This document shows, in pieces, positions 2,391 to 43,644 of a stretch of 64,000 bases of DNA (position 1 is its first letter; each line of letters opens with the position of its first letter). Both the position numbers and the translations under genes were made by a program. Origin of the DNA: Thiocapsa marina 5811. Lineage in GTDB: Bacteria > Pseudomonadota > Gammaproteobacteria > Chromatiales > Chromatiaceae. The notes beneath the pieces are model-generated. The model did not search any database, was not told the DNA's origin, and saw only the letters and a program-made list of their open reading frames with translations. Where the stretch lies: assembly GCF_000223985.1 (NCBI RefSeq), contig NZ_AFWV01000006.1, forward strand, positions 186,001 through 250,000, in the 5' to 3' direction.

Positions 2391-2780
2391 TCATTGAGGG
2401 ATCTTGATTGTTGCTCCGGCCTTGATCTCATTTCCCTTCATGCCGTTCAATTCTTCGATCGATGCAACGCTCGTGCCGAATCGATTGCTGATCGCATACA
2501 GATCATCACCTTTCGCGACCTTGTACGTTCCCTTGTCCGGGTTATAACGGCCTGTCGCATGCACCGGCGGAATATAGATCACCGAGCCCACTTCGATCTC
2601 TTCGGCCGTCTTTCCATTGGTCACCAAGATATCCTCGACGCTGATATCGTAAGTCCCTGCAATCGTCTCGATGTCTTCGTTTTCGCTCACCGTATAGGCA
2701 ACTGCGCTGTCGGATGCCGCGTATACCGACGTCACGCTGATGGCCAAGGTCGCAGCAACAGCAAGGATCTTGATCGTCAT
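2391..2780 (-). CDS. Secreted double-LysM protein
   Basis: The 129-residue product starts with a clear signal peptide (cleavage about residue 21, after VYA). Two LysM units follow, at about residues 28-71 (YTVSENEDIETIAGTY to VIYIPP) and 84-128 (YKVAKGDDLYAIS to TIKIP). LysM domains bind the glycan of peptidoglycan, so it probably decorates the periplasmic cell wall. The second unit with its leader (H-A-T-G-R-Y, then GTYKVAKGDDL) is close to the single LysM of the sulfatase at 11333-14182 and of the HdeA fusion at 31127-31714. There is no attached enzyme. It lies between a beta-barrel gene upstream and a decayed SFAG-tail gene downstream, all on the minus strand. Confidence 0.88.
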   Translation of the reverse strand: MTIKILAVAATLAISVTSVYAASDSAVAYTVSENEDIETIAGTYDISVEDILVTNGKTAEEIEVGSVIYIPPVHATGRYNPDKGTYKVAKGDDLYAISNRFGTSVASIEELNGMKGNEIKAGATIKIPQ

Positions 2781-2995
2781 AGTGTTCTCTTATTGGATGG
2801 ATGATAGCGGTTCATTCGCTTTGTTTCGGCAAAGCTGAGTTGATACCTGAATGCAGAGCTTCAAGTGAGTGAAAAATCTTCGCGCATTCCCAACCCCGAC
2901 GGCGATGCCGTTTTGTTCGAAAGGACACACCTTCTCTACTGATCGATGTCGTCATGACGCGCCACTATCCGGAAGTGTGACCGGCTGAAGACGCG

Positions 2996-8469: not shown

Positions 8470-8682
8470 CTAACAGTTGTAAACACCCACTGCGCAACGT
8501 CGCACCGTACGACGACCTACCCCGGCAACGCTCACCGGTGTGAGTGGCCGTCCGACAATGGCTTCGGCCGTCGGGATCAAACCGTGAAAACCAGGGACTG
8601 AAAGCCGCTCACCAAATTCCGAAGCGCCGATCACGATGACCAGGGCAATCAAACTGACAACAATTGGTTTCGACGCCTTCAT
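8470..8682 (-). CDS. 70-residue secreted protein with SFAG-type tail
   Basis: A hydrophobic N-terminus (PIVVSLIALVIVIGAS) serves as signal peptide or anchor. The C-terminus reads GRPLTPVSVAGVGRRTVRRC, the same tail found on three longer proteins in this window (2015-2283, 14567-15106, 31800-32154). Its start ATG at 8682 overlaps the TGA stop of the upstream DUF2092 gene by four bases, so the two are almost certainly translationally coupled. Nothing but signal and tail is present, which suggests the tail is the functional unit. No function is known to me. Confidence 0.75.
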   Translation of the reverse strand: MKASKPIVVSLIALVIVIGASEFGERLSVPGFHGLIPTAEAIVGRPLTPVSVAGVGRRTVRRCAVGVYNC

Positions 8683-9482
8683 TGGGCCTCTCCTATCTTG
8701 AAATGTTGCGGTAATTCCTCTGTCCCCTCGAGATTCTTCAGGTCGACCTTCTTGGCATCCGTCGGGTTCTTAAAGGTGAAATCGGTTGTCGTAACCTCAG
8801 CGTCTGCCTTCCAGTCCCTGATTTGAATACTGTACTGAGGCTCCCCTTTCATGGACTTCGAGGTGATGCTGAATCGGCAAGGATAAGGACGCTCTCCTTG
8901 CGCAATCCAGATCTGCCAATCGACTTCCTTTGCCCGAAAAGCGAGGTGATCACATTCGGCGCCGCCGATCACGCCGCTGCCGAGATCCTTGACGTCAACG
9001 ACATCCAGCATCAGTGTCTCGTAGGGGTCCATCAACAACAGATCCGCGGCAGGGAGCGGACGGTTGTGCTGCCGCAACTCATCGACCAGATTCTCGATCG
9101 TGCCGGGCACGTCCTGTTGCGCATAGATGTTCAGGTTTTTGCCCAGCAAGGTGAGCGTCTTCCCGTCAAACAACATCTCGACATCCGCAAAACCGCTGGA
9201 CCGCGTGGCGAGGATCTTGTCGGGCCGATTGAGGATCAGCGTGCCCGAACTTGCCAGGGCGAGCTTCTGTTGGTCCTCGGTAATGACCTCCAGGATGGCG
9301 TCGTACTCGAATGAGAGGGCCTGCTGCGCTGCCAAGTAATCGGACATGGCCTTCAGCAGCCGCTTGGCATCTGCTTCATCGGCACTCGCACCCATGGAGA
9401 TGCCCAATGAGACGATCATGGACAACGCCATAGCGGGCAAGCTCCGCACGGAGCGCTTCGCAAGGATTCTCGATGTCTTCAT
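8679..9482 (-). CDS. DUF2092 family periplasmic protein
   Basis: The start at 9482 (MKTSRILAKR) gives a normal signal peptide ending near GISMGASA. The mature part of about 230 residues has the layout of DUF2092 proteins, which resemble the LolA/LolB-type lipoprotein-carrier fold: a helical start (ADAKRLLKAMSDYLAAQQ), then strands such as SGTLILNRPDKILATR, DGKTLTLLGKNLNIYA and a C-terminal DFTFKNPTDAKKVDL. Family membership is by recognition of this pattern; a role in carrying lipids or lipoproteins is only inferred from the fold. It is coupled by an ATGA overlap to the 70-residue SFAG-tail protein. The region 9483-9696 upstream has no gene. Confidence 0.75.
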   Translation of the reverse strand: MKTSRILAKRSVRSLPAMALSMIVSLGISMGASADEADAKRLLKAMSDYLAAQQALSFEYDAILEVITEDQQKLALASSGTLILNRPDKILATRSSGFADVEMLFDGKTLTLLGKNLNIYAQQDVPGTIENLVDELRQHNRPLPAADLLLMDPYETLMLDVVDVKDLGSGVIGGAECDHLAFRAKEVDWQIWIAQGERPYPCRFSITSKSMKGEPQYSIQIRDWKADAEVTTTDFTFKNPTDAKKVDLKNLEGTEELPQHFKIGEAQ

Positions 9483-9696
9483 TTCATTGCACCTCTGCGC
9501 GCCGGAAAGAACAATCCGGTGATTTTCATTTTCTCTCTCCTGTTGTTCGAAAGTTGCCCACACGCGGGCGATTGGGCCTTCTTCCTACCGTGCTTACTCC
9601 AAAGGAATCATGAACGCCCGCTATGCGCATTCATCTGCCACTCGATAGGCATGGGTTGCCCGTCAAGCTCCCGGCAGAATCAACGATCGCAGGAGC

Positions 9697-11332: not shown

Positions 11333-14182
11333 CTATTCGCGGCCGGCTTCCACCTTCTGCAAACCTGCTTCCAGCTTCCTGATCTCCTCCGGCGACAGCA
11401 CCGGCCGATCAACCTTGATCGTCAGCTTGTCCAACCCCGCGGTGAGCGGGAACGGCGGCAGGTAGTCCGCATCGTTGACGCCCGTGATGGTGTCGGAGCC
11501 GACGTCGAAGCTCTCGTCCCACTGCAGGATGATCGGGATGGTCTTCTCCATCTTGATGGTCTGGACCTCCTTGCCGTCGACCTTCAGCGTGCCGGTGCCC
11601 GAGCGTCCAATGCCGCTGAAGTTGTTGAAGGCCATTGTTTCCGCGCCGAGGCCGTCATAGGTGAAGTCGAACTCGATGTTGTGTTTGCCGGGCGCCAGGG
11701 CCTCCGGTCCTTCCCACTTGATGCGCTCCAGATCGAGCAGGTTCCACAGGAAGACCGGCTTGCCTTCGAGCAGGTAGAAGCCGAATCCAGCGAACCGCCC
11801 GCCCGAGGTCACGATCATGCCCTCGGCACCACCCTCGGGAACGGTGATGTCCGCGGTGACGGTATAGGAGGTGTTGAGCAGATAAGGCGCATCGCCCTGC
11901 GGCAGACCGGTCATCGGCGAGGTGTAGACATACTCGTTGCGGCCGGCGGTGAGGCTCGGACGTGGGGCGGCCACGCGGGCGCCCACCGAGGCATCCAGCG
12001 GCAGCACCTGATACTTCTTCGCCTCCGCGAGGAACATCGCGCGCATTTCCGTCACCTTCTCCGGATGCTGCGCGGCGATGTCGTCGGACTGGTTCCAACT
12101 GGTGGTTAGGTCGTAGAGCTGGAACACCTGGTTGTTCAGCGGGTCCGGGTTGGCTGAGGAGAAGGCATCCCAAGGCGCGCGGTCCACCTTGGTGCTCATC
12201 AGCCAGCCGTCATGGTAGATCGCCCACTGGCCCATCATCTCGAAATACTGGGTGGTGTGCCGGGACGGGGCCTTGGCATTCTCCGCGTCGAAGGTGTAGG
12301 CGTAGCTGGTGCCTTCGATGGGCCGCTGCTTGATGCCGTCCACGACCTCGGGGGCCGCGATGCCGGTGACCTCCAGGATCGTCGGCACGTGGTCGATGAC
12401 ATGCATGAACTGCTCGCGCAGGGCGCCCTTGTCTTTGATACGCGCCGGCCACTGAATGACCATGTTCTGGTTGATGCCGCCGAGCCGGGAGGCGTTTTGC
12501 TTGAACCAGTCGAACGGCGTGTCGAAGGCCCAGGACCAGCCGGCCGACATGTGGTTGTAGGCGAGTTCCGTCCCCCATGCCTCGTAGAACTTCATCTGTA
12601 CGTCCACCGGCGGCTTCACGCCATTGAAGAATGCAACCTCGCTGAAGGTACCTTCCGGCCCGCCCTCGGCGCTGGTGCCGTTGTCGCCGTTCTGGTAGAT
12701 GACGAGCGTGTTGTCCAGCCTGCCCAGGTCCTCGAAATGCTGGATCACGCGACCGATCTCATAGTCGCTGTAGGCAACAAAGGCGGCAAACACCTCGGCC
12801 TGGCGGATAAAGAGCTTCTTCGCATCGTCCGAGAGCTCGTCCCAGGGCGTCAGGATGTCCTTCGGCCAGGGCGTGAGTTCCTGATCCGGCGGAATGACGC
12901 CGAGTTTCTTTTGATTCTCGAAGATCCGCTCGCGCAGTTTCTCGTAGCCGTCGTCGAAGAGATGCATCGCGCTGATCTTGTCCACCCATTCTTTAGTCGG
13001 GTGGTGCGGCGCGTGCGAGGCGCCGGGGCAGTAGTGGAGGAAGATCGGCTGTGTGGGGTCGGTCTGGTGAATCCGATCCATCCAGGAGATGGCGTCGTCG
13101 GCCATGGCAGTGATCAGGTTCCAGCTTGGCTCCTCGCCGGTGACGGGCCAGATCGCCGCCTTCGGGTCGGACCGATCCATCTTCAGGGTGCCCTCGTGAC
13201 CGATCCAGGGATAGATCTGCGTGGTGTTGCGGAACAGGTTCGGTCCCCATTGGTTGGCGTCGCCGCCGACGAAGCCATAGAAGTAGTCGAAGCCCATGCC
13301 GGTCGGCCACTGGTTGAACGGCCCGGCTTGGCTGGCCTCGTAGGTCGGCGTGTTGTGGTTCTTGCCGAACCAGCTGGTCGCATAGCCGTTGTCGCGCAGG
13401 ATGCGTCCGATGGTCGCGTTGTCCGCGCCGATGACGCTGTTGTAGCCGGGGAATCCGGTCGCCTGTTCGGCGATGACGCCGAAGCCCACCGAGTGGTGGT
13501 TGCGCCCGGTGATGAGCGCGGCGCGGGTCGGCGAACAGAGCGATGTGGAGAAGATCCGGTTGTAGCGCAGCCCGTTCTCCGCGATGCGGTCCATCGACGG
13601 TGTCGGGATGACGCCACCAAAGGTGCTAGGCACGCCGAAGCCCGCGTCGTCGGTCAGGATCAGCAGGATGTTTGGCGCATCCTTGGGCGGCACGATGCGC
13701 GGCGCCCACCATTGCTTGGATTGGAGCGCGTCGTCCTTGATCACACCGCCAAAGGCAGGCTGGGGCGCGGGCAATTGGTTGCCTGAGATGGTGGTGGTCG
13801 CGCTGGGCGAGCCGAGGACGCCTGTGACCTGGGGGGGTGCCTGGGCGCTGTCCTGGAGGGCGCCTTTCGCCGCGCCTTCGGTCGCGGTGGCGCTGGTGCT
13901 CAGCACCAGTTCCTGACCGATATTGATCAGGTCCGAGTCGAGCTTGTTGGCTTCCTTGATGTCCGCGACCGGGACACCGAAACGTGCGGCGATTCCCGCG
14001 AGATCGTCGCCCTTGGCCACCTCATAGCGACCGGTAGCGGCATCGAATGCGCCTTCTGCGTGATTGCGTGGGCCATTGTCGGCGGCTTGAAGGGCGCCGG
14101 AGCAGAGAAAGACCGCGACCACTAGGGCTGCGGCGAGTCGCCGCCATGGGGGCGACGCTGGTTCCGAGAGGTTGACAGCCAT
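11333..14182 (-). CDS. LysM-arylsulfatase fusion
   Basis: The start at 14182 (MAVNLSEPAS) gives a signal peptide ending near SGALQA; the frame is open further upstream but without support. A LysM unit (about residues 52-95, YEVAKGDDLAGIA to GQELVLS) follows, then a Pro/Ala-rich linker, then a large sulfatase of about 770 residues. Sulfatase hallmarks are the metal-site LLILTDDAGFG and the formylglycine motif CSPTRAALITGR near residue 215; the Cys is oxidised to formylglycine by a maturase in known enzymes. The enzyme would hydrolyse sulfate esters in the periplasm, held on peptidoglycan by LysM. Substrate unknown. Attachment of a LysM to a sulfatase is unusual. Total 949 residues. Confidence 0.92.
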   Translation of the reverse strand: MAVNLSEPASPPWRRLAAALVVAVFLCSGALQAADNGPRNHAEGAFDAATGRYEVAKGDDLAGIAARFGVPVADIKEANKLDSDLINIGQELVLSTSATATEGAAKGALQDSAQAPPQVTGVLGSPSATTTISGNQLPAPQPAFGGVIKDDALQSKQWWAPRIVPPKDAPNILLILTDDAGFGVPSTFGGVIPTPSMDRIAENGLRYNRIFSTSLCSPTRAALITGRNHHSVGFGVIAEQATGFPGYNSVIGADNATIGRILRDNGYATSWFGKNHNTPTYEASQAGPFNQWPTGMGFDYFYGFVGGDANQWGPNLFRNTTQIYPWIGHEGTLKMDRSDPKAAIWPVTGEEPSWNLITAMADDAISWMDRIHQTDPTQPIFLHYCPGASHAPHHPTKEWVDKISAMHLFDDGYEKLRERIFENQKKLGVIPPDQELTPWPKDILTPWDELSDDAKKLFIRQAEVFAAFVAYSDYEIGRVIQHFEDLGRLDNTLVIYQNGDNGTSAEGGPEGTFSEVAFFNGVKPPVDVQMKFYEAWGTELAYNHMSAGWSWAFDTPFDWFKQNASRLGGINQNMVIQWPARIKDKGALREQFMHVIDHVPTILEVTGIAAPEVVDGIKQRPIEGTSYAYTFDAENAKAPSRHTTQYFEMMGQWAIYHDGWLMSTKVDRAPWDAFSSANPDPLNNQVFQLYDLTTSWNQSDDIAAQHPEKVTEMRAMFLAEAKKYQVLPLDASVGARVAAPRPSLTAGRNEYVYTSPMTGLPQGDAPYLLNTSYTVTADITVPEGGAEGMIVTSGGRFAGFGFYLLEGKPVFLWNLLDLERIKWEGPEALAPGKHNIEFDFTYDGLGAETMAFNNFSGIGRSGTGTLKVDGKEVQTIKMEKTIPIILQWDESFDVGSDTITGVNDADYLPPFPLTAGLDKLTIKVDRPVLSPEEIRKLEAGLQKVEAGRE

Positions 14183-14265
14183 TGTGGCGTTGTCTCCAGT
14201 GGTGGGTTGGACGTTGGAAGGCTCAAATCGCTCGCGGCGTGGGCGAGCGACCGGGTTGCTAGGCG

Positions 14266-14510
14266 TTAGACCTGGAGCTGCAATTGGATCTCGCTCGGTC
14301 GCCGGGTCTGGTCGAACCAGGGCTCCAAGGGACCGTATCGACGGTGGAGGCGATGCCGATATCGGCCACCCACCTGTACCAAACGTCATCGATCAGCCCC
14401 GGGGCCATGGGCTGAACATCGACGACCAACGGTTCCTTGCGCCTGTCGATCCAGGCTGCCGTAGATCGTCTCGATGGTGTCGGGCTTCGGAAAGCCGTCG
14501 CTCAATCGCG
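14266..14510 (-). pseudogene. Relic of a DUF1254/DUF1214 gene
   Basis: Two pieces in minus-strand frames match the intact relatives at 34373-38613. The upstream piece (about 14440-14500) reads DGFPKPDTIETIYGSLDRQ, matching DGVPTDATIGTVYDNLDRM. The downstream piece (14266-14340) reads RYGPLEPWFDQTRRPSEIQ and stops with TAA, matching MYGPLEPWINKTWRPGEIE at the end of the 499-residue protein. The roughly 400 residues between are gone. It lies between the SFAG-tail gene and the LysM-sulfatase gene, so these probably once formed one operon with a DUF1254 gene. Confidence 0.8.
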
Positions 14511-30457: not shown

Positions 30458-30967
30458 TCATCGCCGCAACGGCAAGGGCCCGAAGAACAGCTGTTTGGCC
30501 TTGTCCTTGCCGATCAGGCGCACCAGCTCATGCAGGGTGCAGTACATCAGAATCAGCAGGAACAGCAGGATTTGAATGGCCCAGAAATGCGGCCAGACGA
30601 TCTCGGCGAGCAGTTTCTCGTTGCCGGCGACTAGACCGCCTGCTTGGCGAGCGAAGTCGACGAGACGCTCGGCATAGTGCACCGCCGCGGCGACCATCTG
30701 ATACAGCAGCGTCTTCCAAAGCACGTTGTAGATCAGCGGTTTCTCGGGGAAACGATTGATGATGGGCAGCAAGTCTGCAATCAGCACGGCCTTGCCGAGG
30801 ATGAGGGCCGCAAGCGCGATCGAGACCGATGTGGTCGCCCGGATGTCGGTCCCCTCGAGCATCAAGACGCGGATCACGACCACCAGATGCAGTGCGACGA
30901 AGAAATAGAGCGTCGGCGGCAGGATCGCCAAAAACTCTTCTTTAAGCTTGGACAAAACTCGGTTCAT
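30458..30967 (-). CDS. Four-helix membrane protein of unknown function
   Basis: The 169-residue product has about four membrane helices (TLYFFVALHLVVVIRVLML, SIALAALILGKAVLIADLL, YNVLWKTLLYQMVAAAVHY and IQILLFLLILMYCTLHEL). The N-terminus is short and polar, the C-terminus basic. No enzyme or transporter motif is seen. It is located 160 bases downstream of the LysM-HdeA gene on the same strand. In E. coli the hdeAB genes sit beside the membrane protein HdeD, but this protein is not obviously an HdeD. Confidence 0.75.
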   Translation of the reverse strand: MNRVLSKLKEEFLAILPPTLYFFVALHLVVVIRVLMLEGTDIRATTSVSIALAALILGKAVLIADLLPIINRFPEKPLIYNVLWKTLLYQMVAAAVHYAERLVDFARQAGGLVAGNEKLLAEIVWPHFWAIQILLFLLILMYCTLHELVRLIGKDKAKQLFFGPLPLRR

Positions 30968-31126: not shown

Positions 31127-31714
31127 TTAGATCTTCGCCTCGAGCTTCTTCATCTCCGCCTTGGCCTTTTGCCAGAAGGTCTCCTTGGGTGCCTTCTTGC
31201 ATTCCTCGACGACGAAGGGGACGACCGTCTCGATGCCCTCGACGTCCACCGCCTCCGCCTCGGGTTCGCCCGCGGCGTTGTAGGCGACGGCCCAAGACAC
31301 CGCCTCGGGCTGGAAGCTCTCGTCCAGACCGAGGAACTCCTCGCACGTCATCTTGGAATCGGGTTTCTTAGACGACGCATGCCGGCTCGCGGACGTGTCG
31401 GCTTTGCCGGCCGCGTGCGCACCGCCAGATGCAATCCGCAGCTTCTCGCCGGTCTTGACGACGTCGGAGGTCAGGTTGTTGGCAGCCTTGAGTGCATCGA
31501 CCGAGACCTTGAAACGCTGGCTGATCGCGAACAGGTCGTCGCCCGCGACCACCACATAGGTGGCGGTGGCGGAGTCGTACTTGCCTTCGGCGTGGGCGCG
31601 CGGGCCGGTGTCTGCTGCTTGGGCGCTTCCGAATGCCAGACAGGCGGTCAAGGCCACGACCGAGCAGACCGTTCTCAGTGCGGATTGACGGGCGGGGGTT
31701 TGCTTCTGATTCAT
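31127..31714 (-). CDS. LysM-HdeA fusion: wall-anchored acid chaperone
   Basis: The 195-residue product has a signal peptide (to about residue 33), a LysM unit (about 53-94, YVVVAGDDLFAIS to GEKLRI), a Ser/Lys-rich linker and a complete HdeA domain (about 122-195). The HdeA part follows E. coli HdeA closely: MTCEEFLGLDESFQP, VDVEGIETVVPFVVEEC and a Lys-rich end. Both cysteines of HdeA are kept, Cys124 and Cys172, 48 apart as in the E. coli protein. HdeA is a periplasmic chaperone that unfolds at low pH and keeps proteins from aggregating. Here it would be fixed to peptidoglycan. The stop TAA falls inside a CGGTTTAG sequence like the end of the 194-bp repeat. Confidence 0.93.
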   Translation of the reverse strand: MNQKQTPARQSALRTVCSVVALTACLAFGSAQAADTGPRAHAEGKYDSATATYVVVAGDDLFAISQRFKVSVDALKAANNLTSDVVKTGEKLRIASGGAHAAGKADTSASRHASSKKPDSKMTCEEFLGLDESFQPEAVSWAVAYNAAGEPEAEAVDVEGIETVVPFVVEECKKAPKETFWQKAKAEMKKLEAKI

Positions 31715-31799: not shown

Positions 31800-32154
31800 T
31801 CAATAGATCACGGCGCGGCGGAAGGAGCGACGACGCGCGCCGGCAAAGGACACCGGGGTGAGGGGCATGCCGATGACGTCGATGAAGAGCGACGCCGGTC
31901 CGGCTTCGGCGGGAAGCGTACCCTCCAGAACCCGAACTTGGTAGCTCAGATCATCCCCGACGAGCTCCGGCTCCTGGAGCACCAGCACCACGTCCTCCAT
32001 TCTGAACGAACAGGAAATCCGCGTTCTCGCCGGATCCATGGCCCGTCGTGTCTTGCGCGCTCCCGCCCTCGTCGGCCATCGCAGACCGAAAGGCGAAAGC
32101 CAGTGGTGCCAGCGCGGCGGCGCCGGCAAGCAGATGTCTTCTCGTGGTCATCAT
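31800..32154 (-). pseudogene. Broken SFAG-tail protein (second decayed copy)
   Basis: The start ATG at 32154 opens MMTTRRHLLAGAAALAPLAF, the same Tat-like signal as the intact copy. After ENADFLFVQ the frame breaks; the C-terminal part resumes in another frame as EDVVLVLQEPELVGDDLSYQ and ends DVIGMPLTPVSFAG then RRRSFRRAVIY (stop at 31800). About 65 residues are missing. The break comes after the same FxFVQ point as in 2015-2283. It lies between the LysM-HdeA gene and the broken beta-barrel gene. Confidence 0.83.
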
Positions 32155-32224
32155 CGTCTCCGAGTCGGGGGTTGGGTTGTCGGGCGAGGTGTCGGTGACT
32201 GGCGGGCGTCGTCGTGGCGCCTCC

Positions 32225-33073
32225 CTACCAACGGAAGGTCGCCCCGAGCACGGGGCCGGTAAAACGGATGTCCCCATCGTTCTCGTCGAACTCATAGGAC
32301 AGCGAACGCAGGGCGAGCGTGACGTCGCCCCAATCGAAGCGATAACCGGCGCCCAAGGCGGCCTGCCAGGTCAGGTTCGACGAGCCGGTGCCCGCATCCA
32401 AGTAGTAGGGCATGAACCAATGCGTGTCCCCGAACAGGATCTAGCCTTTGACGCCCAGGATGCCGTCCCACTCATCCTTGTTCGAGGAGACCTTGCCGGT
32501 GCGATCAAGCCGATCGTCGCTCCCCGCGAGCTGCCACTTCAAATCGGTGTCCAGGCCCAGATAGCGGAAACCGGCGAGCAGATCGACATTGCCCCAGGCG
32601 CCCCGGGACAGGGTATAGCCGCCGGCCAGGGTCCATACCGTCGCACTCAGGCTCGTCTCGGCTTGATGAGACAGGTTGGGCAGGGGCTCGCCGCGAGGTC
32701 CGCGGAAGGTGCGGATGTCGGAGTCCTGATTGCCGAGGTCCAGGTAGATGATGTCGGTCAAGACCGACCAGGCCCCCTTGCGCGCCTCGCCGCTCAGCAT
32801 CAACGCGAATTGTAGGTTGGATAGATAGTCGTTGGGTCCGATCTCCGTGCCGAGGCGACGGACATCGGATTGCCGAGCGTCCGACACGCGGGGCGGCAGG
32901 TCATAGTCCAAGTTGCCGTTGACGTTCGGCAGCCAAAGGTAGGGGGTGACGCTGAAGTGCCAATTCCCGTCGAAGGGATCAACCTCCGCCGCCGCGGGCA
33001 TAGCGATCAGCGATCCGGCGCACAGAGCGGTTGCCTGCGCCAGGGCAGCGAGGGTGTATGTCGTCTGTTTCAT
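32225..33073 (-). pseudogene. Outer-membrane beta-barrel gene with in-frame amber stop
   Basis: This is a paralogue of 2996-3829, start at 33073 with signal peptide ending MPAAAEV. The frame matches throughout (FSVTPYLWLPNVNGNLDY, NDYLSNLQFALMLSGEARKG, GYRFDWGDVTLALRSLSYEF, final TFRW), but at 32441-32443 a TAG interrupts it where the intact copy has Glu. The reading frame continues unshifted on the other side (ILFGDTHWFMPYY). Only one base would need to change to restore it. Either a recent pseudogene, a sequencing error, or read-through; a truncated product would lack the last barrel strands. Confidence 0.85.
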
Positions 33074-34372: not shown

Positions 34373-36031
34373 CTAGTTCGCCGGTTCGATCTCGCTCGGC
34401 CGCCAGGATTTGTCGAAGAACGACGGAAGCGGGCTGTACAGCCGAAGGATCGTGAACCAGCCCTTTTCCGGATCGGTCTGGATCCAGTTGCCGCGATCCA
34501 CGCCGTCGGGTTGTTCAGGACTGAACCAGATCGTGGTGGAGCCGTCCTCGGCCGCCTTCGCCGCCGGCGAGGGGTAGCTCTGGGAGCCGGCGCGCGGGTA
34601 CTTCTGGAGCGTCTGCAGCATCGACCGTGTCTGATTGTCGTAGAGCGTGAAGGACCAGAACGCCTTGGCCGGGATATCCTTCGGCAGCGTCACCTTGTAG
34701 GTCTTCGCGCCGTCGAACACCTCGCCGTCGGCATCCAGGAATCCCATCAGATACTGCGATCCCACGCCGGGGATGTTCATGATCATGCCGGGGCTGTCGA
34801 GGGTGTAGCCGTAGTAGAAGGCCGTGCGCGAATCGAGCGTGCGTGCGCCGGTCGGCGGCAGCGGCTTGAACATGCCGTCCTCGAAGGCGGGCGGCGGGGT
34901 CTCGAAGAAGGCCCCGCCTTCCCAGAGCATGTTGCCCCACATCGACCCCTCGTAATAGGCCCAGTCCGGATGGGCGCCGTAGGGGCGCCAGTTCAGCACC
35001 CGCCCGGCCGCCTGGCCGACCGCGGCGGCGTCGGCGAGGATCTTCTTCATCCGCTCGTCAGGCGCGAATTCCTTGCCCTTGACGATGCCGATGGCGGCGA
35101 GTTGCCCGGAGAGCTCCACGTCATAGCTGGTGGCGGGCTCCGCCTGGACGTTCTCGTTGATCCACTCATAGAACCCGAAATCGCTGGGCGGGATGGTGTT
35201 GAACGACAGGTTGCTCGCCTCGACGAACGTGGTCTCGGGGATCTTCGGATCTGCCCCGAGGCGGACCGCGCCGGTCAGCGCTTCGGCGATGCTCGTTCCG
35301 TAACCGCCCGGCGTAAAAGGGTAGATCTTCATGCTCGCCTTGACGTTCTCGACCGCCGGCTTGGGATCGTTATCGACCAGATAGGCACGCGAGGCGTAAA
35401 GAACCCGGTTCGTCTTGGAATGGGCAACGAAGTATCCACCCTCGGGCAGCGGCCCGTCGTAGTCGGGACCGACGATCAGATACTTGCCGCCACGGCCGCG
35501 ATCCGGTCCCGGGCCGCCGACGTCGATGATCCACGAGAACCACATGTCGTTGATGGTGCCGACGCCGTCAGACGGCTGCTCGATGACCATCGGCCCTTTC
35601 GAGAGGTCGATCACGGAGAGGTAATAGACAGTGTCGGCGTTTCCGGTCAGGAACAGCGATGTCGAATCCAGCAGCTCAGACGTGATGACGACGTCGTTGT
35701 AGTCCGCGCCGATGCTTTGAAAGCCCTTATGGAACCCCAGCGCGGACGCCCCGCGGAAGCTGTTGTTGTAGACGTTGAGCGCGCGGGTGAAGTCGAGCGC
35801 ATCGAAGACCTTCTGCGCGGTATCGGCGCTTGGAGCGCCGTCCTTGAACTCCAAGGCTCCGATCGAGGTCTCGACGCTGTCGGGTGCGCCAAGCGATTCA
35901 ATCGTCTCTTTCGACACCTCGGCCTGTGTTGTCGCGGCCAGCGACATGGCCACCACAAATCCGCAGGTCATGGGAATTCGGGGCATGGAGTGTTTCCTGT
36001 CGTCGTGTCGGGTCATATCGGTTGCTTTCAT
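34373..36031 (-). CDS. DUF1254/DUF1214 protein (1)
   Basis: From the ATG at 36031, which overlaps the stop of the preceding gene by three bases, 552 residues are read; the signal peptide (PMTCGFVVAMSLAATTQAEV) starts near residue 16, so an internal ATG at 35986 may be the true start. An N-terminal DUF1254 domain (about 35-200, DALDFTRALNVYNNSFRGAS, GNADTVYYLSVIDLSKGP) is followed by a C-terminal DUF1214 domain (about 420-550, FWSFTLYDNQTRSML, W-I-Q-T-D-PEKGWFTILRLYSP). Both occur together in many proteobacterial envelope proteins with no known enzyme activity. It is one of three tandem paralogues. Confidence 0.85.
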   Translation of the reverse strand: MKATDMTRHDDRKHSMPRIPMTCGFVVAMSLAATTQAEVSKETIESLGAPDSVETSIGALEFKDGAPSADTAQKVFDALDFTRALNVYNNSFRGASALGFHKGFQSIGADYNDVVITSELLDSTSLFLTGNADTVYYLSVIDLSKGPMVIEQPSDGVGTINDMWFSWIIDVGGPGPDRGRGGKYLIVGPDYDGPLPEGGYFVAHSKTNRVLYASRAYLVDNDPKPAVENVKASMKIYPFTPGGYGTSIAEALTGAVRLGADPKIPETTFVEASNLSFNTIPPSDFGFYEWINENVQAEPATSYDVELSGQLAAIGIVKGKEFAPDERMKKILADAAAVGQAAGRVLNWRPYGAHPDWAYYEGSMWGNMLWEGGAFFETPPPAFEDGMFKPLPPTGARTLDSRTAFYYGYTLDSPGMIMNIPGVGSQYLMGFLDADGEVFDGAKTYKVTLPKDIPAKAFWSFTLYDNQTRSMLQTLQKYPRAGSQSYPSPAAKAAEDGSTTIWFSPEQPDGVDRGNWIQTDPEKGWFTILRLYSPLPSFFDKSWRPSEIEPAN

Positions 36032-37050
36032 TGGCCACGCGCCACGGGCGGCCCCGGGAACGTCCAGGTGCCGTCGACGATGGATTGTTCCGGTTCATAC
36101 ATGCGAACCGCGTAGTTCCAGCCGTCCATGATGGGCAGGCAGTTCTCCACCCCATCCCCGCACCCGCCGAAGCGGATGGTATATGACCCGTCGCTGTTCG
36201 GTTTCGCGGTCAGGTTGTTCAGGCTATAGGCATTGCGCGCGTTCTTTTGAAAATAGCCCTTGGCGTTGTACAGACTGATTGACCAGAAGCCCTTGACCGG
36301 TACGTCCTTGACGGTCAATTCATAGTCTCCCACCGGCAGATCCGGCTGAACATTCACGTAGACGGCGTCCTGATCAGGCAATCCGCCCCAGGCCGAGGCC
36401 GTGCCGATCATGAAATGCACCGGATCGACCTCGTCTTTCGAGCCGAAGGTATGAATGTAGCGTTTCAGGCCCTTCGCGAGATCGAGAATGGGTTCGAGTG
36501 TCGCCTCGTAGCTCGCCTGGTCATAATCGGGCATCGAGAAGGCCGTGTCGGACCCGGCGGCGATTTCGATCTTGTCTTGCAACGCATGCGCCGCGGCGAG
36601 GTCTGCCTCATCCTCGGGGTCTGCAAGGGTGCGGATGACCAGTGCGACGACGGGGGTGTCGAATGTGTCCAGGGTCAGCTCATGCGCACCGCCGCCGTAG
36701 AAAACCTCGTTCACGTAGCCGTCGTTATTGATGACCATCAACGACATGTAGCGCTTGCCGGAGTCGGGCAGTGTGACGGTCGCGCCATTGGAGAGATCAA
36801 CAACCGCGAGACTGTAGAGCGTATCGCGGTTCATCCGAATAACGTTCTGCTTGTCGATCGGCGTCGGTGTGCGATTGTGATGCAGCTTGTTGACGCCGCC
36901 CGCCAGCTTGATGATGCCCGCAAACTCCATATCGGTCTGCGCCCGATCGAAGTTGTCGACATTGACAGTGATGGCATCGGCAGCCGCCGTGAACGGCACC
37001 GACGCGACAGCCATCACGACAGTCAGTGAAAGATACGAGAGATGTTTCAT
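36028..37050 (-). CDS. DUF1254/DUF1214 protein (2, short form)
   Basis: The 340-residue product begins with a signal peptide (LSYLSLTVVMAVASVPFTAAA). The DUF1254-like part is shorter (NRDTLYSLAVVDLSNGATVT, RYMSLMVINNDGYVNEVFYG), and the C-terminal DUF1214 part is complete (KGFWSISLYNAKGYFQKNA, GWNYAVRMYEPEQSIVDGTW). The stop overlaps the start of the next gene (36028-36031), so these two are one translational unit. It is 63 bases downstream of the third paralogue. Confidence 0.85.
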   Translation of the reverse strand: MKHLSYLSLTVVMAVASVPFTAAADAITVNVDNFDRAQTDMEFAGIIKLAGGVNKLHHNRTPTPIDKQNVIRMNRDTLYSLAVVDLSNGATVTLPDSGKRYMSLMVINNDGYVNEVFYGGGAHELTLDTFDTPVVALVIRTLADPEDEADLAAAHALQDKIEIAAGSDTAFSMPDYDQASYEATLEPILDLAKGLKRYIHTFGSKDEVDPVHFMIGTASAWGGLPDQDAVYVNVQPDLPVGDYELTVKDVPVKGFWSISLYNAKGYFQKNARNAYSLNNLTAKPNSDGSYTIRFGGCGDGVENCLPIMDGWNYAVRMYEPEQSIVDGTWTFPGPPVARGQ

Positions 37051-37113: not shown

Positions 37114-38613
37114 CTATTGCACGCGCTCGATCTCGCCAGGCCGCCAGGTCTTGTTGATCCAGGGCTCGAGCGGGCCATACATCCGCAGGATCGTGAACCA
37201 GCTCTTGCCGGGCACGGTTTGGAGCCAGTTGCCTTCCCTGCCCTCGGGGGCTTCGGGCGCGAAATAGACGTCATAGGAACCGTCGGCGTTCCGGGTCATG
37301 CCCTTGGTCTGGCTGCCGATGGTCGGGAAGCTCTGGCCGGTCCGTAGCTGCGAGCGGGTCTGGGTGTCGTAGATCGTGACGGCCCAGAAGTCGTTGACCG
37401 GCACATCCTTGGGCAGGTGCAGCTTGTAGGTCTTGGAGCCGTCGAATGCCTGCTGATCGGCATCGAGCAAGGCGAGCGCGTAGTCGGACCCCCGCCCGGG
37501 GCTGCTGGTGGCCATGGCCGGGGTCACCCCGCCCGCATTGAAGTAATAGAGCACCCGCGCGTCGAGGTTCATGGCCCCGTCGGACTCGAAGCTGGTGTTC
37601 TTGTTGGCGAAGGCCGTGGACCAGACGCTGCTCGGATCGTCCGGATAGATCCGCACGCCGTCGATACGGGGATGGTAGGTGATGGTGCGGGCGGTGGCGT
37701 CCGCCAGCGTAGCGGCTTCGGTCAACAGCTTCTTGGTCCGCTCGTCCGGGGCGAAGGGCTGTCCCTTGACGATGCCGATGGCGGCGATTTCCCCGCGCAC
37801 CTCGGGGCTGATCGCCTCGATCGGTTCGTCCTGGATGACCCGGTCGAGGTATTCGAAATAGGTGAAATCGCTGGGGAAGACCGTGTTGAAGGCCTTGTTC
37901 GACATGTTGACGAACTCGGTCGCAACCGGGTCGGCCGCGTCTTTCAGGGGATAGACGCGCAGCTTCGAGGTGATGTTCTCGACGGCCGGCTCCAGCCCCT
38001 TGGCGATCGAGCCGCGCAGGAACAAGAAGTTTCGGTTCGTCGGCGGCTTCAACGGAAAGTAGCCGTCGGGGATCTCGCCCGCGTAGCCGGGCGGCAGCAC
38101 AAGGTATTTTCCGCCCTTGCCCTCGTCCGGTCCGGTGACGCCCATGTTGCCGACAAAGCGCTGCCAGGCATCGTTCAGGAAACCGAGCATGCCCGGCGGG
38201 ATCTCGATCACGGTCGGCCCGTCTTTGGCAAGATCGGTGTAGGTGTAGGCATACAGGGTCGAGGTGTTTGCGGTGACGACAAGCGTTTGCGAATCCAGCA
38301 GCTGCTCGAAGATGGCGATCCTGTTCGCGCCCTCGGCTCCTGCGTCGGCCAGCCCCTTGCGCACGCTGTACATCGACACGGCGCCGACATTGTCGAGAAA
38401 CACCTGCATGCCGCGCATACGGTCGAGGTTGTCGTAGACGGTGCCGATCGTGGCGTCGGTCGGCACCCCGTCAAAGAACTCGAGCGTGCCGATCCCGGTC
38501 TCGACCTTGTCGGGGATGGAGATCGCGTCGAGCTCTGCAGGAGAGACCTCCCCGAACGCCGGTCCCATGGCGAGGGCGAGTGCGCAAGCGCTCAGAGCGG
38601 TCAGGCGTGTCAT
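37114..38613 (-). CDS. DUF1254/DUF1214 protein (3)
   Basis: The ATG at 38613 gives 499 residues with a signal peptide ending near GPAFGEV. The layout matches paralogue 1 (DGVPTDATIGTVYDNLDRM, TDLAKDGPTVIEIPPG, DFWAVTIYDTQTRSQL, MYGPLEPWINKTWRPGEIE). The C-terminal pattern also identifies the relic at 14266-14510. The gene is the first of the three-gene block transcribed leftwards. The two-component genes upstream (38839-41423) are on the same strand and could control it. Confidence 0.86.
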   Translation of the reverse strand: MTRLTALSACALALAMGPAFGEVSPAELDAISIPDKVETGIGTLEFFDGVPTDATIGTVYDNLDRMRGMQVFLDNVGAVSMYSVRKGLADAGAEGANRIAIFEQLLDSQTLVVTANTSTLYAYTYTDLAKDGPTVIEIPPGMLGFLNDAWQRFVGNMGVTGPDEGKGGKYLVLPPGYAGEIPDGYFPLKPPTNRNFLFLRGSIAKGLEPAVENITSKLRVYPLKDAADPVATEFVNMSNKAFNTVFPSDFTYFEYLDRVIQDEPIEAISPEVRGEIAAIGIVKGQPFAPDERTKKLLTEAATLADATARTITYHPRIDGVRIYPDDPSSVWSTAFANKNTSFESDGAMNLDARVLYYFNAGGVTPAMATSSPGRGSDYALALLDADQQAFDGSKTYKLHLPKDVPVNDFWAVTIYDTQTRSQLRTGQSFPTIGSQTKGMTRNADGSYDVYFAPEAPEGREGNWLQTVPGKSWFTILRMYGPLEPWINKTWRPGEIERVQ

Positions 38614-38838
38614 CGTTTCAATTCTCCGCGGATCAATCCGGAAAGATGTTTTCCGAAAGCGTGCTTGAGTGACGAGCGATCGGGGACAAATCGCCGGTTC
38701 GGGCAGCATCAACGGTAACAGTGCCGACTCGGCATCAGTATCGGCCCTAAGGGCATCGACTTTGCCCCTTGGGGCAATCTCGTGCCGTACCGAGCAGATC
38801 GGGCGTCGCCGTCGCCGACTGGCCCGCGTGCACTCCGG

Positions 38839-41592: not shown

Positions 41593-43644
41593 TCAGCGTG
41601 ACGCAATCGGCACCAGGCGCTCGTCGGGGGCCAGGGGGCGGATCATCGGATCGAGTCGCCGCAAGCGCGCCGGAAGGTTGGCCAATGCTGACTCGGCCGC
41701 GATGCGGTCGGCGTAGGCGCCGAGCAACACTGGATGCCAGCGCGCACCTTGTGCGTCCGTTTGCAGCTTTAATGCCTTGCCGAGCAGCCCCTCCTCCTCG
41801 GCGAAACGCGCAAGGCTTTCGATACTCCGGTAACTGATCAATTGAATACTGAAACGGGCGTCTGCCTTGATGGCGGAACCTTGATCGCTCGGCGCCGACG
41901 TCGTCCCGACGAGGGCCAAAGTTGCCTGCTCTTCAGACGGATCCGGGTCAGCAGCACGCTCCGGCGCGGACTCGGTGGACGTCGGCGGCCACGGCAGCTC
42001 TGCTGAAGCCAGCCGTTCGTCGGTCACCGACTCGCGATCACCTGTTGGGCCGAGGGTCGACTCGGAAACGCCGACCTCCGTCGACGGGGCGGACTCAACG
42101 GCAGTTGGCCTTGACCTGACGAAGGCTGGTGCTGCCGGGGCGCTCGACGCAACCAAAGGCTCATCGGCACGCGTCCCGGACACGTCGGCCGGCTGGTCCG
42201 CTACGGCCGGAATCGGCGGCTCCACCTGGGCCGGGGGCTCGGCCGGGGTCTCGGCCAGGGTCTTGCCCGGTTCCATCCCCGTCCCTTGAAACGCAACGTC
42301 GAGTCGTTCGATGGCGACGAACGCGACCAGGAGCATCGCTGCGGCCAGGATGCGCCGAGCCGGTGCGCGCGGTGGTGCCTGCTGTTGGAGCCCGAGCAGA
42401 GAACTGTAGATCGGCCGCCCGCCCAGGCCCTCGGCCGTGAAGGTGGCGGCCAGGCAGGTGATGATGATCGGCAGGGCCAGGGCTTGGGCGCCGGTGAGCT
42501 CGATCACCAGGATGATGCCGGTGAGCGGCGCGCGCACGGTGGCCGCGAAGAGCGCGCCCATGGCCGCGACCGCGAACATCTCCGGGGCGAGCGCCAGTGT
42601 CGGCGCCGCGAGCGTGATCAGGGCCGCGAAGGCTGCCCCGCAGATGGTGCCGAGCGCGAGCAGCGGCGCAAAGATGCCGCCCGGGAGACCCAGACCGTAG
42701 GAGCCGATGGACGTCAGCAGCCGCACCGCGAGCAGCGCGATCAAAAAGAACAACGCCGGTTGGCCGTGCACCAGGCTCTCGACCAAACCTTCCCCGCCGC
42801 CGACGGTATTGGGCGCGAACCACAGCAGCGCACCGAGCATCAGACCGGCGACAGCGGCGGCGCTGTAAGCCCCCGGGGTACCGAGCGCGCGGAACGACGC
42901 CACCGAGCCAAGCACCAGCCCGTTGAACAGCACGCCAAGTGCGCCGATGAGGATGCCGAGGACCAGAAACAGCGGCAGCGCCTCCAGCGGTGCCATCCCG
43001 AGATCCGGCATCGCCATATCCGGACCCTGTCCGAGCATCCAGCCGCTCACGATGACCGCGGCACAACTGGCGAGGATGACGGACTGGATGGTCTCGAAGC
43101 GATACTCGAAGTGCTCGCGCAGCTCCTCGGTGACGAAGACGATGGATGCGATCGGCGCGTTGAAGGCGGTTGCCAAGCCGGCCGCCGCACCGGCCGCGAT
43201 GAGGGCGCGATTAGCGCCGGGTCGCGGCTCGATGCGCTCGCCGGCCATCTGACCAAGCGCCGCACCCATATGGATGGTCGGCCCTTCGCGCCCGAGCACC
43301 AAACCGGAGCCGACCGCCAAAGCGCCGGCGACGAACTTCACCGGCAGCACGCGCTTCCAGCGCAATTGGCGTTCGCCGGCGAGGATGGCCTCGACCTCTT
43401 GCACGCCGCTGCCCGCGGTCTCCGGGGCGAAGCGTCGCACCAGCCACATCGCCGTGACCAGCACCGAGGCACCGAGCAGCATCAACAGCAGCCAACCGGG
43501 TACGGGTGCCGCCTCGAGAAGTGCTTTCAGATCGCCGCGGCTGGCGGCGGCTTGATCCAACAGTGCATGGAAGGCAGCGCCGATCAGCCCGGTGAGGACA
43601 CCGACGAGGGTTGCTGCGAGGTAAAGCCGCCAAGGAAACGTCAT
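41593..43644 (-). CDS. ClC chloride/proton exchanger fused to a membrane helix and a SPOR domain
   Basis: Residues 1-420 form a ClC transporter with the usual signatures: AGSGVQEVE, GREGPTIHMGAALG (gating Glu), a Glu-Glu pair in VTEELREHF, GLPGGIFAPLLALG and the anion-site Tyr in RPIYSSLLG. The Glu of the proton path is present, so exchange of Cl- for H+ is likely, as in the E. coli acid-resistance ClC proteins. An extra helix (ILAAAMLLVAFVAIERL) follows, then a Pro/Ala-rich linker and a C-terminal SPOR-like domain (about 605-683, SIQLISYRSIESLARFAEEE, W-H-P-V-LLGAYADR). SPOR binds denuded septal peptidoglycan, so the extra helix places it in the periplasm. The stop is 18 bases downstream of DedA's neighbour spacing, in one operon with DedA. 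Confidence 0.92.
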   Translation of the reverse strand: MTFPWRLYLAATLVGVLTGLIGAAFHALLDQAAASRGDLKALLEAAPVPGWLLLMLLGASVLVTAMWLVRRFAPETAGSGVQEVEAILAGERQLRWKRVLPVKFVAGALAVGSGLVLGREGPTIHMGAALGQMAGERIEPRPGANRALIAAGAAAGLATAFNAPIASIVFVTEELREHFEYRFETIQSVILASCAAVIVSGWMLGQGPDMAMPDLGMAPLEALPLFLVLGILIGALGVLFNGLVLGSVASFRALGTPGAYSAAAVAGLMLGALLWFAPNTVGGGEGLVESLVHGQPALFFLIALLAVRLLTSIGSYGLGLPGGIFAPLLALGTICGAAFAALITLAAPTLALAPEMFAVAAMGALFAATVRAPLTGIILVIELTGAQALALPIIITCLAATFTAEGLGGRPIYSSLLGLQQQAPPRAPARRILAAAMLLVAFVAIERLDVAFQGTGMEPGKTLAETPAEPPAQVEPPIPAVADQPADVSGTRADEPLVASSAPAAPAFVRSRPTAVESAPSTEVGVSESTLGPTGDRESVTDERLASAELPWPPTSTESAPERAADPDPSEEQATLALVGTTSAPSDQGSAIKADARFSIQLISYRSIESLARFAEEEGLLGKALKLQTDAQGARWHPVLLGAYADRIAAESALANLPARLRRLDPMIRPLAPDERLVPIASR

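Follow-up and report, generated by a model that had tools for sequence, protein, structure and literature searches.

A gene on the minus strand of Thiocapsa marina 5811 (31127..31714 of the 64,000-nucleotide stretch of DNA that was analysed, here called the window) encodes a 195-amino acid protein, P0002, in which an HdeA domain sits behind an export signal and a LysM unit. The account that we favour, with moderate confidence, is that the protein is a chaperone of the HdeA type that is exported and then kept on the peptidoglycan by a LysM tag common to other envelope proteins encoded nearby. HdeA is known as a small, free periplasmic chaperone that is activated by acid, and an earlier note on this DNA had read the gene as a signal peptide, one LysM unit and a full HdeA domain that together would fix acid protection at the wall. 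The domain reading is borne out and the coordinates given there are exact, to which the strand can now be added. Acid protection at the wall is something that we, too, infer; the recurring element, however, is the tag and not HdeA, because several exported proteins encoded nearby, unrelated to each other, carry the same LysM tag, and acid protection need not be the reason why the tag arose. We rate the find as known domains, LysM and HdeA, in a new combination, together with an unexpected shared tag.

Residues 1-33 (31616..31714) make up the export signal, which from its sequence and from pattern counts ends in a cleavage-like site between AQA and AD and holds a lipobox-like LTAC at residues 22-25. 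The 61-residue tag follows at residues 34-94 (31433..31615) and comprises about 18 residues, ADTGPRAHAEGKYDSATAT, and a LysM at residues 53-94 that scores 44.9 bits against a cut-off of 20.9 (Pfam PF01476). A linker whose length differs among species (residues 95-119, 31358..31432) leads into the HdeA domain core (residues 120-182, 31169..31357), where the Pfam match (PF06411) extends over residues 108-182 and lies, with 72.7 bits and an E-value of 3.3e-20, far above the cut-off of 22. The narrower HdeA equivalog model of NCBIfam (NF007576) gives the fusion 84.7 bits and thus places it just under its cut-off of 85; the protein is a member of the HdeA/HdeB family that is not filed as HdeA proper. 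Its two cysteines, C124 (31343-31345) and C172 (31199-31201), are invariant in all 36 aligned sequences of fused and free HdeA and stand 48 residues apart, as they do in E. coli HdeA and as the earlier note had counted, and they may pair in a disulfide.

Mean pN/pS over 15 pairs from six Thiocapsa genomes amounts to 0.16 for HdeA, 0.26 for the LysM part, 0.40 for the linker, 0.48 for the signal and 0.33 for the short tail; both domains are under purifying selection, which is weaker on the linker and the signal. The nearest named relatives, from Thiocapsa roseopersicina DSM 217 (92%), Thiocapsa sp. KS1 (91%) and T. imhoffii (80%), align over nearly the full length. A chance origin is very unlikely because of the domain scores, these 80-92% relatives and the low pN/pS, and a spurious open reading frame was rejected on the same grounds. 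A promoter scan found none, and a single terminator-like site was seen, fewer than in shuffled sequences.

Structure prediction agrees with both domain assignments. The model, computed from a 36-sequence alignment that contained fused as well as free HdeA relatives, has a mean pLDDT of 72.4, with ten-residue means of 88-91 in the LysM core and 76-95 in the HdeA part, and falls below 50 at residues 97-115 of the linker; a previous model from 7 close sequences had reached a mean pLDDT of 46.9, and its HdeA part was poor. The modelled HdeA part superimposes on E. coli HdeA (PDB 1dj8) with a Z-score of 12.7 and an rmsd of 2.0 Å over 77 residues, and the LysM part on PDB 4uz2 with a Z-score of 8.6 and 1.2 Å over 50 residues. 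With a pTM of 0.42, the mutual arrangement of the two predicted domains is not fixed by the model.

E. coli HdeA is also the best solved relative in a PDB search (E 2.4e-17, aligned without gaps), with HdeB lower down and the remaining matches mostly LysM proteins. The HdeA of the fusion resembles it (PDB 1bg8, 1dj8) in fold, in both cysteines and in 37 of 84 residues. It differs in context, since the E. coli chain of about 90 residues stands alone whereas the Thiocapsa domain sits behind a LysM and a linker. According to excerpts from PMC8144458, E. coli HdeA folds as a dimer, opens up in acid and engages clients via two hydrophobic sites, with D20 and D51 as key residues. In the fusion, the client-binding sites are kept at 4 of 7 (site I) and 5 of 8 residues (site II), D51 is retained, D20 is replaced by E and W16 by M; the acid-sensitive regions are partly kept, with 2 of 6 (A), 3 of 7 (B) and 5 of 6 (C) identical residues. 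Chaperone action of the fused HdeA is therefore likely.

On the LysM side, profile and fold are those found in wall hydrolases such as the T. thermophilus NlpC/P60 protein (4uz2) and MltD (8rhf). There the partner is a wall-cutting enzyme, whereas the partner of the tag's LysM is not, and about 18 conserved residues stand in front of the latter. The other two LysM proteins that the tag profile picks out elsewhere in the T. marina genome match it only from positions 14-17. Kbp of E. coli (PDB 7pvc), a small one-LysM protein built of BON and LysM, aligns with a Z-score of 5.9, in a range deemed common by the tool, and differs in that its partner domain is not HdeA. In other proteins the LysM fold serves to bind glycans, and the family binds N-acetylglucosamine polymers such as peptidoglycan; the PDB titles of two LysM matches, 4b8v and 7r1l, mention bound N-acetylglucosamine chains. 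Most likely, then, the tag would hold its cargo on peptidoglycan.

The N-terminal part of the fusion is not private to HdeA. When a profile of seven fusions was searched against a class sample of 369 genomes, it matched other proteins of the same genome by their N-terminal part only, and this part can be described as a 61-residue signature, ADxGPRxHAEGxYD..T.TY plus LysM, in which the segment ADxGPRxHAEGxYDxxTxT comes before the LysM. The tag alone has 50 full-length matches (from position 1-2 to 60-61), which score 72 to 123 bits and come from 21 of 194 Chromatiaceae genomes, a count that includes the HdeA fusions and one copy with a stop inside (G015). A further nine matches are partial (positions 5-7 to 61) and score 53.7 to 65.0 bits; their frames are all 132-187 residues long, and those inspected are small two-LysM proteins; LysM-only matches in the same search reach at most 52.1 bits and start at positions 12-21. 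At an E-value of 1e-14, five of the 369 class-sample genomes pass, namely T. marina, G277 and G404, which are tagged, and two with LysM-only matches that begin at position 17. Of 229 genomes sampled from the phylum, T. marina alone does so.

Adding six tagged sequences from G277 and G404 to the 50 from Chromatiaceae gives 56, which carry DUF1254/DUF1214 (18), long arylsulfatases (15), HdeA (8), an unknown protein of about 840 residues (5), HAD hydrolases (4), short arylsulfatases (4), DUF2092 (1) and a truncated frame (1); this count leaves out a G277 copy interrupted by a stop as well as the small two-LysM proteins that match in part. Cargo classes were first set by text patterns with DUF1254 as the default class, and 50 of the 56 sequences were then scanned with Pfam, six of the eight HdeA rows having been assigned by the PF06411 search instead. 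Pfam recovered the two DUF domains together in 17 of 18 sequences, Sulfatase in 14 of 15 long arylsulfatases and all four short ones, HAD in 4/4 and DUF2092 in 1/1; L135 and L126, the two exceptions, run into contig ends. The cargo of about 840 residues (e.g. L117:15423-18272 and L145:3874-6888, both on the minus strand) shows nothing but LysM-type matches in all five cases. LysM itself exceeds the Pfam cut-off in 49 of the 50, the exception being L076, whose frame breaks off inside the tag and leaves 17.6 bits.

Tags have a median identity of 54% (34 to 74%, 1130 pairs) when their cargo differs and of 60% (301 pairs) when it is of one kind, while the cargo proteins themselves have a median of 26% and a maximum of 42% (61 sampled pairs, first 300 residues). 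The signal peptides look alike as well: across the signal's end and the tag, 51 of 78 residues and 72.6% of nucleotides are common to the T. marina HdeA and HAD fusions. A tag tree of 54 sequences (here, as in the identity counts, the partial G015 and the truncated G404 were left out) has 11 label changes against a minimum of 6; with only 61 columns, tests did not reject a single clade for HdeA (p 0.38), short sulfatase (0.17), long sulfatase (0.21) or DUF1254 (0.12). The tree therefore does not tell how often the tag has been swapped, and one origin per cargo would be compatible with it. The closest pair on different cargo in the same genome, the tags of the HdeA fusion and a DUF1254 gene in G133 (74%), is suggestive only.

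Comparison of related genes adds a further line of evidence. The window holds three untagged DUF1254/DUF1214 genes (34373-36031, 36028-37050 and 37114-38712, all on the minus strand, by Pfam), whose tagged relatives in G101 and G133 are 64, 75 and 74% identical. In KS1 (G071), HAD and a short sulfatase are untagged, and the same kinds are tagged in T. marina and G023. In another KS1 sulfatase (L128:13744-16593, minus strand), other sequence takes over after the front of the tag, which we read as a decayed or replaced tag. DUF2092, untagged in the window (8679..9563, minus strand, by Pfam), has a distant tagged relative in G100 at 28% identity and is a weaker case. Because related cargo occurs both with and without it, the tag has been gained or lost on standing genes.

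In T. marina, the tag is tightly clustered: five tag-like matches above 55 bits, four full and one partial, lie within 54 kb of a 5.59-Mb genome. If the matches were placed independently and at random, such clustering would have a probability of roughly 4e-8, an approximation that takes no account of tandem duplication. The window's second tagged gene encodes an arylsulfatase, 1018 amino acids as listed (11333..14389, minus strand; tag at 13901-14083), and a small exported two-LysM protein of 132 amino acids (2394..2789, minus strand) matches tag positions 6-61 with its second LysM. Directly downstream of the fusion, a 169-amino acid ORF that resembles a membrane protein and has no Pfam match (30458..30967, minus strand) recurs as a neighbour in five of the six Thiocapsa genomes with an intact fusion. 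Upstream, a small gene that looks like one for an exported protein and spans two overlapping frames (31800..32295, minus strand; frames 31800-32129 and 31951-32295) has an adjoining relative in all six. Relatives of this small gene also recur beside tagged genes at several of the loci read.

Other neighbours include the DUF1254/DUF1214 genes, a response regulator and a kinase, CorA, a mechanosensitive channel and a CLC-type chloride channel with a C-terminal SPOR domain (41593-43644, minus strand; SPOR 24.6 bits, cut-off 21). SPOR is a different wall-binding domain, and a 58% relative of the channel over query residues 1-680 lies in G023 (L116:765-2735). Two further neighbour genes carry domains that we take to be those of ergothioneine synthesis enzymes. 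None of the scanned neighbours is a clear acid-resistance gene, the chloride channel being a loose hint at most, and the genes around the fusion are no proof that it has a role in acid.

The fusion itself is rare among the genomes searched. PF06411 finds 24 HdeA matches in 19 of the 194 Chromatiaceae genomes, and eight of these are LysM fusions: intact ones in six of 11 Thiocapsa genomes and in one genome of another genus (G133), and a broken copy in G015. A search at the level of the order gave nearly the same result. Among the remaining Thiocapsa, G139 has an HdeA remnant without signal or tag and four genomes have no HdeA match. The G139 remnant (L149:7921-8145, minus strand) comes directly after a frame that is presumably MazF-like. 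T. marina and G023 have additional, separate untagged HdeA relatives. G023 also has a C-terminal HdeA remnant (L117:15226-15354, minus strand; 72% over 43 residues) just downstream of a tagged gene of about 840 residues, and in G156 (L016:1147-1767, plus strand) another extended HdeA sits behind a long Ala/Pro/Lys-rich repeat spacer.

HdeA is present in 40 of 398 phylum-sample genomes, and none of the HdeA ORFs at the 29 matched loci that were read (L043-L071) matches the tag profile; 47 HdeA ORFs compared with that profile yielded no new fusion, only the known broken one (L015). On plasmids, 22 records match, none over at least 80% of the query; one from Candidatus Thiodictyon syntrophicum bears the tag on the unknown cargo of about 840 residues. 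A common architecture, which the earlier note had named as an outcome that would refute its reading, was thus rejected within the genomes searched, given the rarity in Chromatiaceae and the lack of a new fusion in the phylum sample. The other such outcome that it named, an HdeA-like part scoring under the family threshold, is countered by the Pfam score. Among the matches listed from open-licence literature, none describes the fusion or the shared tag.

Taken together, we envisage that the protein would be exported, as its sequence features suggest, and that its LysM would fold and hold it on glycan strands, the fold being predicted and the binding expected from the LysM family. The flexible linker would then let HdeA act like its E. 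coli counterpart, as its family membership implies: folded, dimeric and inactive at neutral pH, it would open up in acid and capture envelope proteins as they unfold. The tag may have been joined to HdeA, as to the other cargo, by the spread of one 5′ gene segment, and the benefit would lie in bringing the chaperone and the neighbouring tagged enzymes together at the wall rather than leaving them free in the periplasm. Several points count against this account: the acid-sensitive regions are only partly kept, the NCBI equivalog cut-off is narrowly missed, a clear acid-resistance gene is missing among the scanned neighbours, the domain arrangement is not fixed by the model, the lipobox-like motif would provide another anchor, and a single LysM may bind weakly.

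Alternatively, the tag could be an address label for the wall or matrix that serves envelope enzymes such as the sulfatases, DUF1254/DUF1214 proteins and HAD hydrolases, with the fused HdeA as their putative dedicated folding helper instead of a general acid chaperone. The HdeA fusion does have both tag and neighbourhood in common with the other tagged genes, and the separate untagged HdeA relatives in T. marina and G023 could do the general job; all the same, we consider it unlikely that the protein is such a helper. We give still less credit to the possibility that the tag is inherited baggage, that is, a 5′ segment that provides a good export signal and was spread by recombination, its wall binding being incidental or lost. 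Similar signal peptides travelling with the tag, related cargo without it, the KS1 sulfatase that retains only its front and the L076 copy that breaks off inside it would all fit such a history, but selection on the LysM part of the HdeA fusion and the near-universal retention of an above-threshold LysM among the tagged rows scanned speak against it.

The export signal raises the further question of lipidation. If the Cys of LTAC were lipidated, the protein would be anchored in the membrane and its LysM would bridge to the wall, and the lipobox-like pattern indeed recurs in five of the seven HdeA fusions with sequence upstream of the tag, in all four HAD and in 8 of 18 DUF1254 rows. However, hydrophobic residues follow the Cys, an AxA-like site closes the signal in 7/7 HdeA rows, and the pattern is missing from the fusions of T. 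imhoffii (LTLC) and G133 (no Cys); a lipoprotein is the least probable of these readings. Attachment of an exported HdeA-type chaperone to the peptidoglycan through the shared tag remains the reading that we prefer.

More broadly, and at somewhat less than even credence, the exchangeable N-terminal module of signal and extended LysM might constitute a wall-address tag that moves between genes of one neighbourhood in purple sulfur bacteria, gathering unrelated envelope enzymes and an acid chaperone on the peptidoglycan as a shared scaffold. The presence of HdeA behind a LysM in six of 11 Thiocapsa genomes asks whether fixing a chaperone in place alters what gets protected, and the tagged and untagged relatives of DUF1254/DUF1214, HAD and the short sulfatase allow a direct comparison of what the LysM tag does to place and function. 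The tag family also offers a way to approach DUF1254, DUF1214 and DUF2092, domains whose Pfam entries give either no known function or a predicted periplasmic location.
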